A stretch of DNA of 64,000 bases. Origin: Pseudemcibacter aquimaris (GTDB lineage Bacteria > Pseudomonadota > Alphaproteobacteria > Sphingomonadales > Emcibacteraceae). The DNA is taken from positions 3,245,001-3,309,000 of the forward strand of contig NZ_CP079800.1 in NCBI RefSeq assembly GCF_028869115.1. The letters are read 5' to 3'. Of the stretch, positions 1,012-6,739 are shown in pieces. The notes beneath the pieces were generated by a model that was given only the letters and a program-made list of their open reading frames with translations, was not told where the DNA came from and did no database searches. The position numbers and the translations under genes were made by a program. The stretch's first letter is position 1; each line of letters opens with the position of its first letter.

Positions 1012-1767
1012 ATGATCATTGAGGCGCTAACCCACCTTTTTACGCCTGCGCCGACATATGTCAAAAAAATGGGTTATTTAAAAGAATCAATTGCCATTGA
1101 AGCCCGCGTTAATAGATGCCGTGATGCGTGGCAACCGCATTTAGATACATGTAAAAAGCTAATCCTTCAACAAGCAGAAAAACTGGAACAAGGATCAAAT
1201 ATTATGATTCTGGGCTCCGGTGGCTTTCATGATATCCCAATGAGCGAATTATTAGCCCTTGGCCATACTATTACAGCTGTTGATATCGTACATTTGCAAA
1301 AAGTAAAAAATCGATACCCTGACATCAACTTCGTGGAACATGATGTTACCGGATTAAATCAAAAATTATTTGATGCCGTAAATAACAACAAAAGCGTTTC
1401 ACCCGCAAGTGATTGGGAACTGATCAAAACGCCAGATTTAATTATATCTTTAAATCTTCTTTCGCAGTTGCCGCTTAAAATGATTAGATATGCTGAGAAG
1501 CATTCCCATGATCTTGGCATCTTGTTTCAAGAAAATGTTATGCAGGCACATGTTGATTGGCTCAAAAAACAAAAAACAAATGTACTTTTAATATCCGATA
1601 TTGAACGGGAATATTATCATCATGAAAAATTGGTTGAAACAATCCCAACACTGCTAAAAATAGATTTACCGGATCCCATCAGTACCTGGAAATGGAATAT
1701 CGCCCCAGAAGGAGAAGCTGACCCAGAAATCAGCATAACCCATCTTGTTGGTTATTGGACATTGTAA
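1012..1767 (+). CDS. Methyltransferase-like protein of unknown function
   Basis: This 251-residue protein starts with ATG immediately after the TAA of the M23 peptidase gene, so the two are probably cotranscribed. No named family is recognised. Residues about 63-75 read IMILGSGGFHDIP, followed near 89 by an acidic strand end (AVDIVH). This resembles motif I and the acidic loop of a class I SAM-dependent Rossmann fold, and LIISLNLLSQLPL looks like the motif IV strand. There is no signal peptide or membrane segment. The substrate cannot be guessed. The fold assignment is inference from the motif pattern. Confidence 0.6.
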   Translation: MIIEALTHLFTPAPTYVKKMGYLKESIAIEARVNRCRDAWQPHLDTCKKLILQQAEKLEQGSNIMILGSGGFHDIPMSELLALGHTITAVDIVHLQKVKNRYPDINFVEHDVTGLNQKLFDAVNNNKSVSPASDWELIKTPDLIISLNLLSQLPLKMIRYAEKHSHDLGILFQENVMQAHVDWLKKQKTNVLLISDIEREYYHHEKLVETIPTLLKIDLPDPISTWKWNIAPEGEADPEISITHLVGYWTL

Positions 1768-1809: not shown

Positions 1810-1867
1810 AGATTATCAGGCATTAGCCATGTTACTTAGCACCTGTATTCAGGAGAGTGAAAAGTAA

Positions 1868-2590
1868 ATGCCACAATTTTTTAAAACATTAGTTGATGCC
1901 TTAAGAGACCTTGCACCGATTGTCGGTGTGGTTCTTTTTTTCCAGCTTATTGTTTTACAACAACCATTACCGGAACCCTTTAAAATTGCTGGCGGTATGG
2001 CGGCAGTGGTGGTGGGGCTCGCGCTTTTTATTCAGGGCCTTGAATTAAGTTTATTTCCGCTTGGTGAAAATATGGCAGGGGCACTTGTACGTAAAGGCAG
2101 CATTCCTTGGCTAATTATATTTTCATTTGCGCTTGGATTTGGAACCACTGTTGCGGAACCCGCCCTTATTGCCGTTAGTCAAGAAGCCGCCCGTATCACA
2201 GCATCCGCCGGCATGATCCCCGCGACGGAAGAGGCGCAAAGCTCATACGCATTCGGGCTTCGTATGACGGTGGCCGTATCCGTTGGCATTGCCATTGTAA
2301 CGGGCGTAATCCGGATCATTAAAGGATGGCCGATACAGTATATAATCATCGGCGGTTATTTGGTGATTGTGGTGCTGACCCAATTTGCGCCAGAAAGCAT
2401 TATTGGTGTGGCATATGATAGTGGTGGCGTGACCACATCCACCATCACCGTGCCGCTCGTAACCGCGCTTGGTATCGGGTTATCAACCGTGATTAAAGGC
2501 CGGAACCCAATGATTGACGGCTTTGGGCTTATTGCCTTTGCTAGCCTGTTTCCGATCGCCTTTGTTCTTGTTTACGGGATTGTGTTTTAA
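1868..2590 (+). CDS. DUF1538 family membrane protein (first copy)
   Basis: This 240-residue, strongly hydrophobic protein has about six or seven membrane segments and belongs to DUF1538. The conserved blocks are LFPLGENMA (63-71), TTVAEP (93-98) and YDSGGVTTS (183-191). Polar Gly/Ser/Thr-rich loops between hydrophobic stretches are typical of transporters, but I know of no established substrate. An AGGAG lies 12 bases before the ATG. Its TAA overlaps the ATG of the second DUF1538 gene by one base. The pairing suggests the two act as a heteromeric membrane unit. Transport is inference. Confidence 0.85.
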
Positions 2591-3375
2591 TGGAAGAATT
2601 ACTGATCAAAATGATAACGACATTCTTACTTACGGTGCGTGATGTGGCACCGATTGGTATTTTGCTCGTTTTTTTCCAGACATTCGTTCTGAAATCCCCA
2701 GTGCCAAATTTAAAAAAGGTGGTGGTTGGGTTTATTTATGTGATTACCGGGTTGGCATTATTCCTGATCGGCCTTGAGCAGGCATTATTCCCGCTTGGGG
2801 ATATTATGGCAAAGCAATTAACCGACCCTGCCTTTATCACTGGCGGTGAAGGGGCCGACGGACAAGTATTAGAATGGTGGCAATATTACTGGGTTTATAT
2901 ATTCGCGGCTGCCATTGGTTTTTCCACCACTGTCGCGGAACCATCATTAATCGCGGTTGCGATGAAAGCAAGCGATACATCCGGTGGCACATTAAAACCA
3001 TGGGGCTTAAGGATTGCTGTGGCTATTGGTGTTGCCTTATCAATCGCGCTGGGTGCATTTAGGATCGTAACCGGTACATCACTGGCCTATTACATGATGG
3101 CGGGTTATTTATTTGTGATCGTACAAACCATTTTTGCCCCGAAAACAATTATCCCGCTTGCTTATGATAGTGGTGGTGTGACCACATCAACCGTTACCGT
3201 GCCGCTTGTCACCGCGCTGGGTCTGGGCCTCGCGTCAACTGTACCGGGACGAAGCCCGCTTGTAGACGGGTTTGGCCTGATCGCGCTTGCAAGCCTGTTC
3301 CCGATGATTACCGTTATGGGATACGCACAAATTTCACAATTTCTTCAAACACGTAATGAAAGGAGCGCACAATGA
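2590..3375 (+). CDS. DUF1538 family membrane protein (second copy)
   Basis: This 261-residue paralogue of the preceding gene keeps the same blocks: LFPLGDIMA (66-74), TTVAEP (113-118) and YDSGGVTTS (192-200), the last followed by a nearly identical [11 protein letters not shown] segment. Compared with its partner it carries an insertion around residues 78-100 (TGGEGADGQ, WWQYYW) between two membrane segments. The one-base overlap upstream and the four-base ATGA overlap with the PII-like gene downstream indicate translational coupling. The near-identical blocks in adjacent genes point to an old tandem duplication that has diverged into two subunits. Confidence 0.85.
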   Translation: MEELLIKMITTFLLTVRDVAPIGILLVFFQTFVLKSPVPNLKKVVVGFIYVITGLALFLIGLEQALFPLGDIMAKQLTDPAFITGGEGADGQVLEWWQYYWVYIFAAAIGFSTTVAEPSLIAVAMKASDTSGGTLKPWGLRIAVAIGVALSIALGAFRIVTGTSLAYYMMAGYLFVIVQTIFAPKTIIPLAYDSGGVTTSTVTVPLVTALGLGLASTVPGRSPLVDGFGLIALASLFPMITVMGYAQISQFLQTRNERSAQ

Positions 3376-3722
3376 AATTTAAATTGATTGTCGCTATGGT
3401 CGCTGATGAAAAAACGGACCAAGTCATTGAAACAGCACGAGAATTAGGGGCCACAGGCGCCACCGTTATCACCAGCGCACGCGGCGAGGGACTTACACCC
3501 GCCAAAAGCTTTTTCGGTGTAACGGTCGAAGGACAAGTTGATGTAGCCCTGTTTATTGTTGAAGAACATATGAGCAGAACAATTTTGGAAGCAATTTCGG
3601 AAGCAAGCGATTTTAAAGGCTCACAAGGATCCGGTGTTGCGTTACAATTAGACATTGAAGACGTTGTAGGCCTGGAAAGCCAGCTTGCAACCATTCAGGA
3701 TGAAATCGAGGAACAGATATGA
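3372..3722 (+). CDS. Divergent PII-like (GlnB superfamily) regulator
   Basis: This 116-residue protein has the length and N-terminal pattern of PII signalling proteins: a first beta strand (KFKLIVAMV), a helix, then GATGATVITSARGEG in the position of GITGMTVTEVKGFG. It is not a classical GlnB. The T-loop (after residue 38) is short and lacks the uridylylated tyrosine context, and the usual TGxxGDGKIF stretch is replaced by DFKGSQGSGVALQLDIEDV. An SD-like AGGAG sits just upstream inside the DUF1538 gene, and both ends overlap neighbours by ATGA. By analogy with AmtB-GlnK or SbtA-SbtB it probably binds a nucleotide and gates the DUF1538 pair. Confidence 0.75.
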   Translation: MKFKLIVAMVADEKTDQVIETARELGATGATVITSARGEGLTPAKSFFGVTVEGQVDVALFIVEEHMSRTILEAISEASDFKGSQGSGVALQLDIEDVVGLESQLATIQDEIEEQI

Positions 3723-4120
3723 CCGAAATAAAACATGAAACAGTAAAAGAAGTCATGACAACCAATCTGATTATGGTTGATGGGCTGACAACGATATCTG
3801 ATGCACTGGATATTATGCGTAAAAACGAGATCAGCTCGCTTGTGATTAACCGCAGAAACGAAAGCGATGAATATGGTTTGCTGACCGCATCGGATATCGC
3901 GAATGAAGTACTTGTGCCTGATCTAGCACCTGAACGAACGAGTGCCTATCAAGTGATGCAGAAACCTGTGCTTTGCATGCGCGCCAATATGAACATCCGT
4001 TATGCCATTCGCCTGTGTGCAAAATTCAAAGTATCCCGCGCATTGGTGATTGAAAATGACGAAGCCGTCGGTATCGTCACATTACGAGATATGGTGCTAA
4101 GATATACGGAAGAAAAGTAA
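3719..4120 (+). CDS. Tandem CBS-domain protein
   Basis: This 133-residue protein consists of two CBS domains, about residues 10-65 (VKEVMTTNLIMV start) and 75-130 (QVMQKPVLCMR start, VGIVTLRDMV end), with no other domain. CBS pairs usually bind adenosine nucleotides or SAM. As the last gene of the DUF1538-PII operon, coupled by an ATGA overlap, it likely adds a second energy or nucleotide sensor to the same membrane unit. A bidirectional hairpin terminator follows within 15 bases. Confidence 0.85.
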   Translation: MTEIKHETVKEVMTTNLIMVDGLTTISDALDIMRKNEISSLVINRRNESDEYGLLTASDIANEVLVPDLAPERTSAYQVMQKPVLCMRANMNIRYAIRLCAKFKVSRALVIENDEAVGIVTLRDMVLRYTEEK

Positions 4121-4130
4121 GTCATAATTA

Positions 4131-4157
4131 AATGCCCCGCTTAAAAAACGGGGCATT
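4131..4157. terminator. Bidirectional Rho-independent terminator
   Basis: AATGCCCCG (4131-4139) and CGGGGCATT (4149-4157) form a 9-bp stem around an A-rich loop, with T-rich sequence on both outer flanks. It separates the rightward CBS gene from the leftward clpB and can end both transcripts. Confidence 0.85.
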
Positions 4158-4162
4158 TTCAT

Positions 4163-6739
4163 TTAAACGCTCAATTCGATGCCATTTGCACCTGCTGTGC
4201 CCTTGACGGTTTGACCGTCCATAATATCTCCCGCCAAAATCATATTAGCGAGAGCGTCCTGCACATGTTGTTGGATCACACGTTTTAACGGTCTTGCGCC
4301 GTAAACCGGATCATAGCCGGTGTGGGCAAGCCAGTCTTTTGCGCTGACATCAAGCTCAAGTGAAATTTTGCGTTCTGCAAGGCGTTTTTCAAGGCCCGCG
4401 AGCTGAATATCAACGATTTTATGCATGTGTTTTTCAGCCAAACGATGGAACAGCGTAATTTCATCAAGACGGTTGATAAATTCGGGACGGAAGCTTGCCC
4501 GAACCACATTCATCACATCATCACGTACTGTATCCACATCTTCATCACTTCCTAATGCGGCGATCAGATCACTGCCGAGATTACTGGTCAGGATGATCAA
4601 CACATTACTGAAATCAACGGTGCGGCCCTGCCCGTCAGTGAGGCGGCCATCATCAAGGACTTGCAGCAAGATATTGAAAACATCACCATGGGCCTTTTCC
4701 ACCTCATCAAATAGTACCACTTGATATGGACGGCGGCGAACGGCTTCGGTCAGCACGCCCCCTTCGTCATATCCCACATATCCGGGCGGCGCACCTATCA
4801 GGCGGGCAACAGAATGTTTTTCCATAAATTCAGACATATCAATGCGCACCATGGCATTTTCATCGTCGAATAAATATTCGGCCAGCGCCTTGGTCAGTTC
4901 TGTTTTACCGACACCCGTTGGACCAAGGAAAAGAAACGAACCTATTGGGCGTGTTTCTTCCTGAAGCCCCGCACGCGCGCGGCGAACGGCCGCGGCCACC
5001 GCAGAAATGGCCTCGTCTTGTCCAATCACGCGTTTTCCAATATTGTCTTCCATGCTCAGAAGTTTTTCACGCTCGCCTTCCAGCATTTTATCAACCGGAA
5101 TACCTGTCCAGCGGCTGATCACGGCGGCAATATCGTTATCGGAAACTTCTTCTTTTAGTAACTGATTATCGTCTGCGTCGCCTTCGGTTACATTTTTAAG
5201 CTTTTCTTCCAGCTCAGGAATTTCACCGTAGGTAAGTTCACCCGCACGGGCAAGATTGCCTTCACGTTGTGCTTTTTCAAGTTCGACACGGGCAGCATCA
5301 AGACGTTCCTTGATTTTTTGATCGCCTTCGATGCGGTCTTTTTCTTTTTGCCACTGGGCTGTCATTTCTGCTGATGATTGCTCTAATTCAGAAAGTTCCT
5401 TATCCAGATTTTTCAGACGGTCTTTTGATGCGTCGTCCTTTTCTTTCTTTAAAGCTTCGCGTTCAATTTTTAACTGAATGATACGGCGGTCCAGCTCATC
5501 AAGCTCTGATGGCTTGCTATCCACTTCCATTTTAATCTTTGAGGCGGCCTCATCCATCAAATCAATGGCTTTATCAGGAAGGAAGCGATCATTGATATAA
5601 CGGTTGGAAAGGGTTGCCGCGGCAACAAGCGCGCTGTCTTTAATGCGAATACCATGATGAAGTTCGTATTTTTCCTTAAGGCCACGCAAGATAGATATGG
5701 TATCAGCCACTGTTGGCTCACCAATTAATACTGGCTGGAACCGGCGTTCAAGGGCCGCATCCTTTTCCACATATTTACGGTATTCATTAAGCGTGGTCGC
5801 ACCAATACAGTGTAACTCACCACGGGCAAGCGCTGGTTTTAACAGGTTAGAAGCATCCATTGAGCCTTCCGATGCGCCCGCGCCCACGATCGTGTGCATT
5901 TCATCAATGAAAAGTACGACAGAGCCATCTGATGCAGAGACCTCTTGCAGAACCGCCTTCAATCGTTCTTCAAATTCGCCGCGGTATTTTGCACCCGCAA
6001 CAAGCGCGCCCATATCAAGGGACATGATTTTCTTTTGGCTAAGGCTTGCGGGTACGTCACCATTCGTTATGCGTAAGGCGAGCCCTTCTGCGATGGCCGT
6101 TTTACCCACACCCGGCTCACCAATCAGCACCGGATTGTTTTTTGTGCGGCGTGATAGCACCTGAATGGTGCGACGGATTTCTTCATCGCGCCCGATCACC
6201 GGGTCAAGCTTGCCGTCCTTGGCCGCTTGTGTCAGATCGCGTGCATATTTATTCAGCGCATCATAGCCATCCTCTGCACTTGGGGAATTGGCGTTACGAC
6301 CTTTACGAATTTCATTAATGGCTGTGTTTAAGTTCTGCGCCGTTAGGCCGGATTTTTTAAGAATGTCTGCTGATTTACTGCCGGATAATAGCGTAAGCGC
6401 AAGCAGCAACCTTTCAACGGTGACATATTCATCACCGGCTTTTTTAGCAACTTCGCCCGCGCTATCAAAAAGTTTCGCGGTAAGTGCATCCATATAAAGC
6501 TGACCACCGGCACCCTCAACCTTAGGGAAACCGTTTACTTCTTTTTCCACAGCAAGTAATGCTGATGACGGGTCCGCACCCGCAGCCGTCATTAAGTTTG
6601 AACATAACCCTTCTTTATCTTCGAGCAAGATTTTTAAAATATGCTCAGGCGTAAATCTCTGATGCCCCTCTCTAAGTGCAAGATTCTGGGCGGACTGGAT
6701 AAATCCTTTTGTTCTGTCGGTAAATTTTTCAAAATCCAT
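4163..6739 (-). CDS. clpB: ATP-dependent chaperone ClpB
   Basis: ClpB is the Hsp104-type AAA+ disaggregase that works with DnaK. This 858-residue protein has the Clp N domain ([15 protein letters not shown] start), AAA-1 with Walker [14 protein letters not shown], a long coiled middle domain (charged Glu/Lys repeats), and AAA-2 with Walker [13 protein letters not shown]. The length is normal. The frame can extend 12 codons further to a TTG at 6775, but the ATG at 6739 is preferred: it gives the canonical N-terminus, has a GGAG 8 bases upstream, and the TTG would fall almost at the start of the predicted heat-shock transcript. Confidence 0.97.

Follow-up and report, generated by a model that had tools for sequence, protein, structure and literature searches.

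What do two related membrane proteins do when they are encoded in a single tightly packed operon together with two small sensor-like proteins? The question is raised by four genes of the window, that is, the whole 64,000-nucleotide stretch of Pseudemcibacter aquimaris DNA analysed in this study (Table 1). The answer towards which we lean, with slightly better than even confidence, is a heterodimeric monovalent cation/proton antiporter of the UmpAB type with two cytoplasmic regulators of its own, the two sensor-like proteins probably switching the transporter on and off. It builds on the genes, their order, their co-occurrence, an architecture rule, a predicted PII fold and the loss of GlnB residues, all observed here, and on antiport and heterodimer formation as established for a relative, UmpAB of Halomonas (PMC5484666). 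We infer that the window proteins carry Na+/K+ and that sensor and transporter make contact, and infer likewise the ligands and the sign of the regulation.

The first-pass annotation had described four coupled genes overlapping by 1-4 bases, and this was confirmed: the four reading frames all lie on the forward strand, the two DUF1538 genes meeting in TAATG (a 1-base overlap at 2590) and each of the following junctions (3372-3375 and 3719-3722) consisting of ATGA, a 4-base overlap. Its further description, two diverged DUF1538 paralogues followed by a PII-like gene and a tandem CBS gene, was borne out as well. The membrane proteins are 49% identical, both contain the motifs TTVAEP and YDSGGVTTS, and at 223 and 222.8 bits both exceed the PF07556 cut-off of 22.6 bits; the PF00543 and PF00571 matches of the two small proteins also lie above the curated cut-offs. 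The putative terminator hairpin sits between the operon and a convergent gene that is of ClpB type according to Pfam, and was absent from the output of a terminator scan with a loop limit of 8 bases. Promoter-like matches were not above shuffled sequence (6 found, 5.7 expected). A reading frame of 251 aa (window 1012-1767) directly precedes the operon in the same orientation; it has no Pfam match above cut-off, its weakest hint being a methyltransferase profile (E 0.21).

Table 1. Features of the operon (window coordinates) and the three single chains with three PII domains (locus coordinates).
Feature	Position	Strand	Basis or remark
Putative ribosome-binding stretch AGGAGAGTG, 5' of the first gene	1851..1859	+	predicted from sequence
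UmpA-like DUF1538 membrane protein, 240 aa	1868..2590	+	PF07556 223 bits; NCBIfam UmpA model 358.7 bits
UmpB-like DUF1538 membrane protein, 261 aa	2590..3375	+	PF07556 222.8 bits; NCBIfam UmpB model 330.1 bits; AlphaFold2 pLDDT 92.7
PII-like protein, 116 aa	3372..3722	+	PF00543 35.7 bits; model resembles PII structures, best E 1.3e-5
Tandem CBS-domain protein, 133 aa	3719..4120	+	PF00571 72.6 bits, two stretches; CBS-CP12 5nmu nearest, E 3.5e-19
Hairpin GCCCCG...CGGGGC with T-rich tail, putative terminator	4130..4158		RNA fold -15.4 kcal/mol on 4125-4165
Three-PII single chain	L173:6501-7643	+	beside fused DUF1538
Three-PII single chain	L182:3324-4433	-	beside fused DUF1538
Three-PII single chain	L186:3388-4533	-	beside fused DUF1538

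As to what the pair may carry, the membrane family had been annotated as one without a known substrate, a view that is outdated and can be rejected. Meng et al. (2017; PMC5484666) showed a DUF1538 pair from Halomonas zhaodongensis, UmpAB, to be a two-component Na+(Li+,K+)/H+ antiporter. Both umpAB genes were required together for tolerance of 0.2 M NaCl, the heterodimer of UmpA and UmpB was seen by co-immunoprecipitation, and antiport, assayed in antiporter-deficient Escherichia coli and in everted vesicles from that host, had its optimum at pH 9 (PMC5484666). The two genes alone were active in E. coli, where no Halomonas sensor gene was present (PMC5484666); a word search for PII or CBS found no mention in that article.

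Like UmpAB, the window pair consists of two adjacent DUF1538 paralogues whose stop and start codons overlap by one base, and it belongs to the same family by PF07556 and by the best NCBIfam models, each of the diverged genes being best matched by one of the two. The difference is that both window proteins fall below the equivalog cut-offs of these UmpA and UmpB models (NF041627 and NF041628), with 358.7 bits against 490 and 330.1 bits against 500, respectively. No genome passed the UmpA equivalog cut-off in three sets of 34, 370 and 20 genomes, and this cut-off is therefore narrow. Of 370 genomes sampled from one class of the phylum, probably the Gammaproteobacteria, 128 (98 of 273 genera) have a match to the UmpA model as such.

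The structure of UmpB, predicted with high confidence (pLDDT 92.7, pTM 0.84), is all-helical, with helix breaks at TTVAEP and YDSGG. Six residues (E117, D193, D226, T199, T203 and P205 in UmpB numbering) are invariant to two decimals amongst 243 DUF1538 sequences, and the acidic residues at the helix breaks, E117 of TTVAEP and D193 of YDSGG, are the likely ion and proton sites. A Foldseek search of the UmpB model against solved structures in the PDB gave no match at E 0.001, the best being E 0.65.

The four-gene arrangement is not a matter of chance, since the same neighbours recur in loci of several phyla, and the possibility of a local oddity of one genome was ruled out by this recurrence. 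In a set of 41 loci (36 from DUF1538-positive genomes, representing 35 of 41 genera, four from relatives, and the window), a PII gene adjoins the DUF1538 pair in 38 and a CBS gene in 29. The proposed link between sensors and transporter has strong support from gene order and from co-occurrence, with the CBS gene less constant than the PII gene; nor are DUF1538 pairs mostly without sensors, as far as PII is concerned. A fixed four-gene unit was rejected, CBS being dispensable (missing in 12 of the 41 loci). Neither sensor lies beside the pair in three loci that have room on the contig (L059, L061 and L064). The genomes of L059 and L064 carry a PII-CBS pair on another contig (L198 and L199), and that of L061 has a PII-like gene on another contig (L200) as well as a further DUF1538, a fused one accompanied by two PII genes (L211). 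In L075, as in one half of L066, the sensors precede the pair.

Wider sampling gave a similar picture for PII. A set of 80 named loci comprises the best matches found with the UmpB of the window and so leans towards close relatives; 79 of these have PII next to the pair and 76 have CBS there. Two were counted as PII-positive with the PII inside an over-extended reading frame, L085 stops at a contig end, and two repeat loci of the first set (L098 = L042, L081 = L077). DUF1538 was found in 10 of 247 genomes (one below cut-off) of a sample centred on Bacteroidota and in 7 of 148 genomes of one centred on Desulfobacterota, both phylum names being deduced from the named loci around which the samples were drawn. 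All eight loci fetched from the former have PII and none has CBS; five of six from the latter have PII, the sixth (L183) being cut by a contig end. Seven of nine plasmid records with a match were fetched, five of them from Bacillota, and all seven contain PII. A 4-base overlap joins the PII and CBS genes in 64 of the 80 loci in which their junction was measured. No conserved fifth gene was found in the fetched flanks, no other neighbour cluster occurring in more than 15 of 144 loci, and no constant replacement gene follows PII in ten loci without CBS (reading frames judged by eye). A search for fused relatives on viral contigs returned one partial locus only.

The two genes also keep company across genomes. 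Of 397 genomes sampled across the phylum of the window, 88 have DUF1538, 90 an operon-type PII (matching a profile of the operon PII-like proteins at E 1e-10) and 87 both; by genus the figures are 41 and 42 of 232. DUF1538 only was found in G005 and operon-type PII only in G022, G105 and G109, i.e. in 3 of the 309 genomes without DUF1538. Fisher's exact test gives p 5e-83, which is not a true probability as the genomes are related. The best PII match reaches only 44-61 bits in 11 of the 87 shared genomes; in the four of these that were fetched (G013, G060, G061 and G380) it adjoins a fused DUF1538 gene (L210, L209, L207 and L208, respectively). In G084 and G116 the PII match lies on a different contig from the DUF1538 pair. 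Operon-type PII copies without an adjoining DUF1538 were also recorded (L195, L196, L197 and L200-L206), the one in L205 having a DUF1538 pair about 3.5 kb away (see L065). Genes that are dus-like and ntrB/ntrC-like, named from sequence alone, follow the PII copy in L196, L197 and L203, and three of the genomes with standalone copies (G041, G097 and G117) have a DUF1538 operon without CBS.

When 150 loci were compared (at least the two duplicates above included, and eight, L193, L194 and L207-L212, chosen on account of an earlier PII or DUF1538 match), a limited number of architectures was distinguished. A separate pair is accompanied by one PII and CBS in 102 loci, by one PII without CBS in 12 (and in two more cut by contig ends) and by two PII domains in three. 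Fused pairs shorter than 560 aa occur with one PII and CBS (five loci) or with two PII domains (10 loci), and fused pairs of at least 560 aa with two PII genes (eight loci) or a single chain of three PII domains (three loci). Three loci, plus two at contig ends, have no sensor. All 107 CBS-bearing loci have one PII each, and 23 of the 24 loci with at least two PII domains are without an adjoining CBS. The one exception, L066 (2296-6487), is explained by two DUF1538 clusters lying side by side on one strand with one CBS, so that no single cluster combines CBS with several PII domains; the order there is fused pair, PII and CBS, then PII and a separate pair.

An approximate tree was built from 101 PII domains and the genome's own glnB; many of its supports are low. 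Where a system has two PII domains, the first and the second mostly separate by position. Single PII proteins cluster with second domains from two of the Bacillota proteins (support 0.99), and the remaining three Bacillota second domains with those of Bacteroidota. The tree suggests that CBS may have replaced a first PII. Five Bacillota plasmid records (L164, L166, L167, L168 and L169) encode a fused DUF1538 pair and then a tandem PII protein of 217-229 aa (the reading frame in L169 being 305 aa). A relative in the window's own genus (L076) has a fused DUF1538 of 597 aa with two PII genes and no CBS; set beside the window, it places both architecture types within one genus.

The three-PII chains (369-381 aa) adjoin fused DUF1538 proteins of 626-713 aa. 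In hhalign comparisons each domain matches the profile of single PII proteins (96.8, 96.7 and 94.8% probability). Pfam recognises a single domain in one of the chains, a sub-threshold match in another and nothing in the remaining one, so that the triple-PII reading rests on the profile comparison. These chains are possible covalent PII pseudo-trimers.

The PII-like protein of the operon belongs to the PII superfamily both by its PF00543 score (35.7 bits against a cut-off of 25) and by its predicted fold (mean pLDDT 79.3), which matches PII structures with a best E of 1.3e-5; the protein is probably a trimer. Confidence in the model is lowest at the short T-loop, where residues 41-45 lie below pLDDT 50, and a T-loop plug therefore receives no support from the model. 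Aligned with the glnB product of the same genome, the operon protein has a T-loop five residues shorter, lacks equivalents of Tyr51, Lys58 and Arg101/103, and reads GSGV for GDGK and VGLE for IRIR. The T-loop residues Tyr51 and Lys58, the B-loop GDGK and Arg101/Arg103 are the marker positions of canonical GlnB/GlnK; the lost residues serve uridylylation and the contacts with 2-oxoglutarate and ATP phosphates. Given their loss, the operon PII is not expected to behave like GlnB: it should show neither GlnB-like uridylylation nor 2-oxoglutarate reading and should bind ATP phosphates differently, if at all. Since a separate glnB lies beside glnA in the same genome and the key residues are missing, a canonical GlnB/GlnK was ruled out. 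Eight residues of its own (R37, G38, G40, F47, G49, G86, G88 and A90) are each conserved in at least 93% of 119 sequences.

The second sensor contains two PF00571 stretches, and its nearest solved relative over the whole CBS pair is cyanobacterial CBS-CP12 (5nmu; E 3.5e-19 with the single sequence, 1.7e-35 with the profile), a protein that binds AMP. In site 1 the ribose-type aspartate D59 is conserved in 92% of 117 sequences; site 2 is variable among relatives.

Put together, UmpA and UmpB would form the transport unit, and the PII-like protein would dock on its cytoplasmic face as a brake or gate. A second input, most likely the adenylate level (AMP, ADP, ATP or a cyclic adenine nucleotide), would be supplied by the CBS pair; both sensors would be of an adenine-nucleotide type. 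Other lineages would obtain the second input from a second PII domain in place of CBS. In the simplest mode the brake would be applied or released by the adenylate state. Since the Halomonas pair was active in E. coli without the donor's sensors, sensors are not needed for transport and should modulate it. Precedents for PII-type proteins acting on transporters are SbtA-SbtB and AmtB-GlnK (PMC8352866), and gating of either kind is plausible here by analogy. Points that speak against this reading are the scores of the window proteins below the UmpA and UmpB cut-offs, the sensor-free activity of Halomonas UmpAB, the twelve split-pair loci with one PII and no CBS, the three loci with neither sensor beside the pair, the standalone PII-like copies and the low model confidence at the T-loop.

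The substrate is one point at which a different account may be given. The DUF1538 pair could be a sensor-gated transporter of something else (e.g. ammonium, bicarbonate or some other anion, or else a small metabolite), with the Na+(K+)/H+ exchange seen in E. coli as a side activity. Regulators of the PII type are best known from ammonium and bicarbonate transporters (PMC8352866), and the authors of the UmpAB study also reported Na+/H+ antiport for other, unrelated families, UPF0118 and RDD, so that antiport by UmpAB may be a side activity; nor is the substrate fixed by fold, UmpB having no significant relative in the PDB. Set against this, monovalent cation/proton antiport is the only activity of the family found to have been measured (PMC5484666), cable-bacteria authors tied UmpAB homologues to salinity adaptation in two papers, and a machine-learning study placed DUF1538 in its table of pH-adaptation genes. 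On balance a substrate of this other sort seems rather unlikely to us.

The direction of control might also be reversed, the membrane pair serving as a receptor that captures or releases the PII-like and CBS proteins, which would then act on other targets. Canonical GlnK both gates AmtB and is sequestered by it, and some of the PII-like copies away from DUF1538 lie by the dus-like and ntrB/ntrC-like genes of L196, L197 and L203. Such copies are few, however (3 of 309 genomes without DUF1538), and the neighbour clusters of the 144 loci include no conserved third target gene near the operon, which makes this account improbable. It is still harder to credit that the four genes are merely expressed together under one physiological condition, their proteins making no contact. 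Against it stand an almost obligate pairing across several phyla, the overlap of the reading frames and architectures that change together (a fused pair with two PII domains, a long fused pair with two or three), all of which favour physical coupling; co-expression by itself appears very improbable. A regulated antiporter of the UmpAB type is the reading retained here.

Antiport, PII brakes and CBS sensors are each already known. No description of the near-obligate sensor link, the exchange of CBS for a second PII or the three-PII chains was found in the open-licence literature among the matches listed, nor any paper on PII control of an antiporter among those matches. PII and CBS as words in DUF1538 papers gave nothing relevant, one PII match being the numeral ii (PMC13255231 was searched for DUF1538 only). 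Should the antiporter reading hold, the cation/proton antiport by which cytoplasmic pH and K+/Na+ are set would be under post-translational PII-type control in a large share of bacteria; the transport of ammonium and of bicarbonate is already known to be controlled by PII. How two sensor inputs combine could then be studied in natural variants, namely the CBS/second-PII exchange and the triple-PII chains. A broader proposal, which we offer tentatively and hold to be possible though somewhat doubtful, is that DUF1538 represents a transporter class with a so far unsolved fold and a modular two-input sensor head (PII with CBS, PII with PII, or a covalent three-PII chain as a natural single-chain pseudo-trimer). 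This head would read two metabolite signals and gate alkali-cation/proton exchange, tying together pH, K+/Na+ and energy state.

Compared with known systems, the operon shares with SbtA-SbtB a transporter gene followed by a PII-like gene; it differs in its unrelated membrane protein and in the addition of a second sensor. Only some SbtB proteins share the C-terminal CGPxGC R-loop; the window PII contains no cysteine and hence no such loop, and the membrane genes that it adjoins are DUF1538. With AmtB-GlnK it has in common that a membrane protein and a PII protein are encoded together, but the transporter is another one and the PII lacks equivalents of Tyr51, Lys58, GDGK and Arg101/103. CPII of Thiomonas is amongst the fold matches of the operon PII (5d4o, E 5.5e-5) and comes from a carboxysome-operon context, as opposed to the DUF1538 operon here. 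CBS-CP12 of cyanobacteria differs in its CP12 tail, which is absent from the window protein, the 133 aa chain stopping right after the second CBS domain. By analogy, the operon would work like SbtA-SbtB and AmtB-GlnK, yet be a member of neither.
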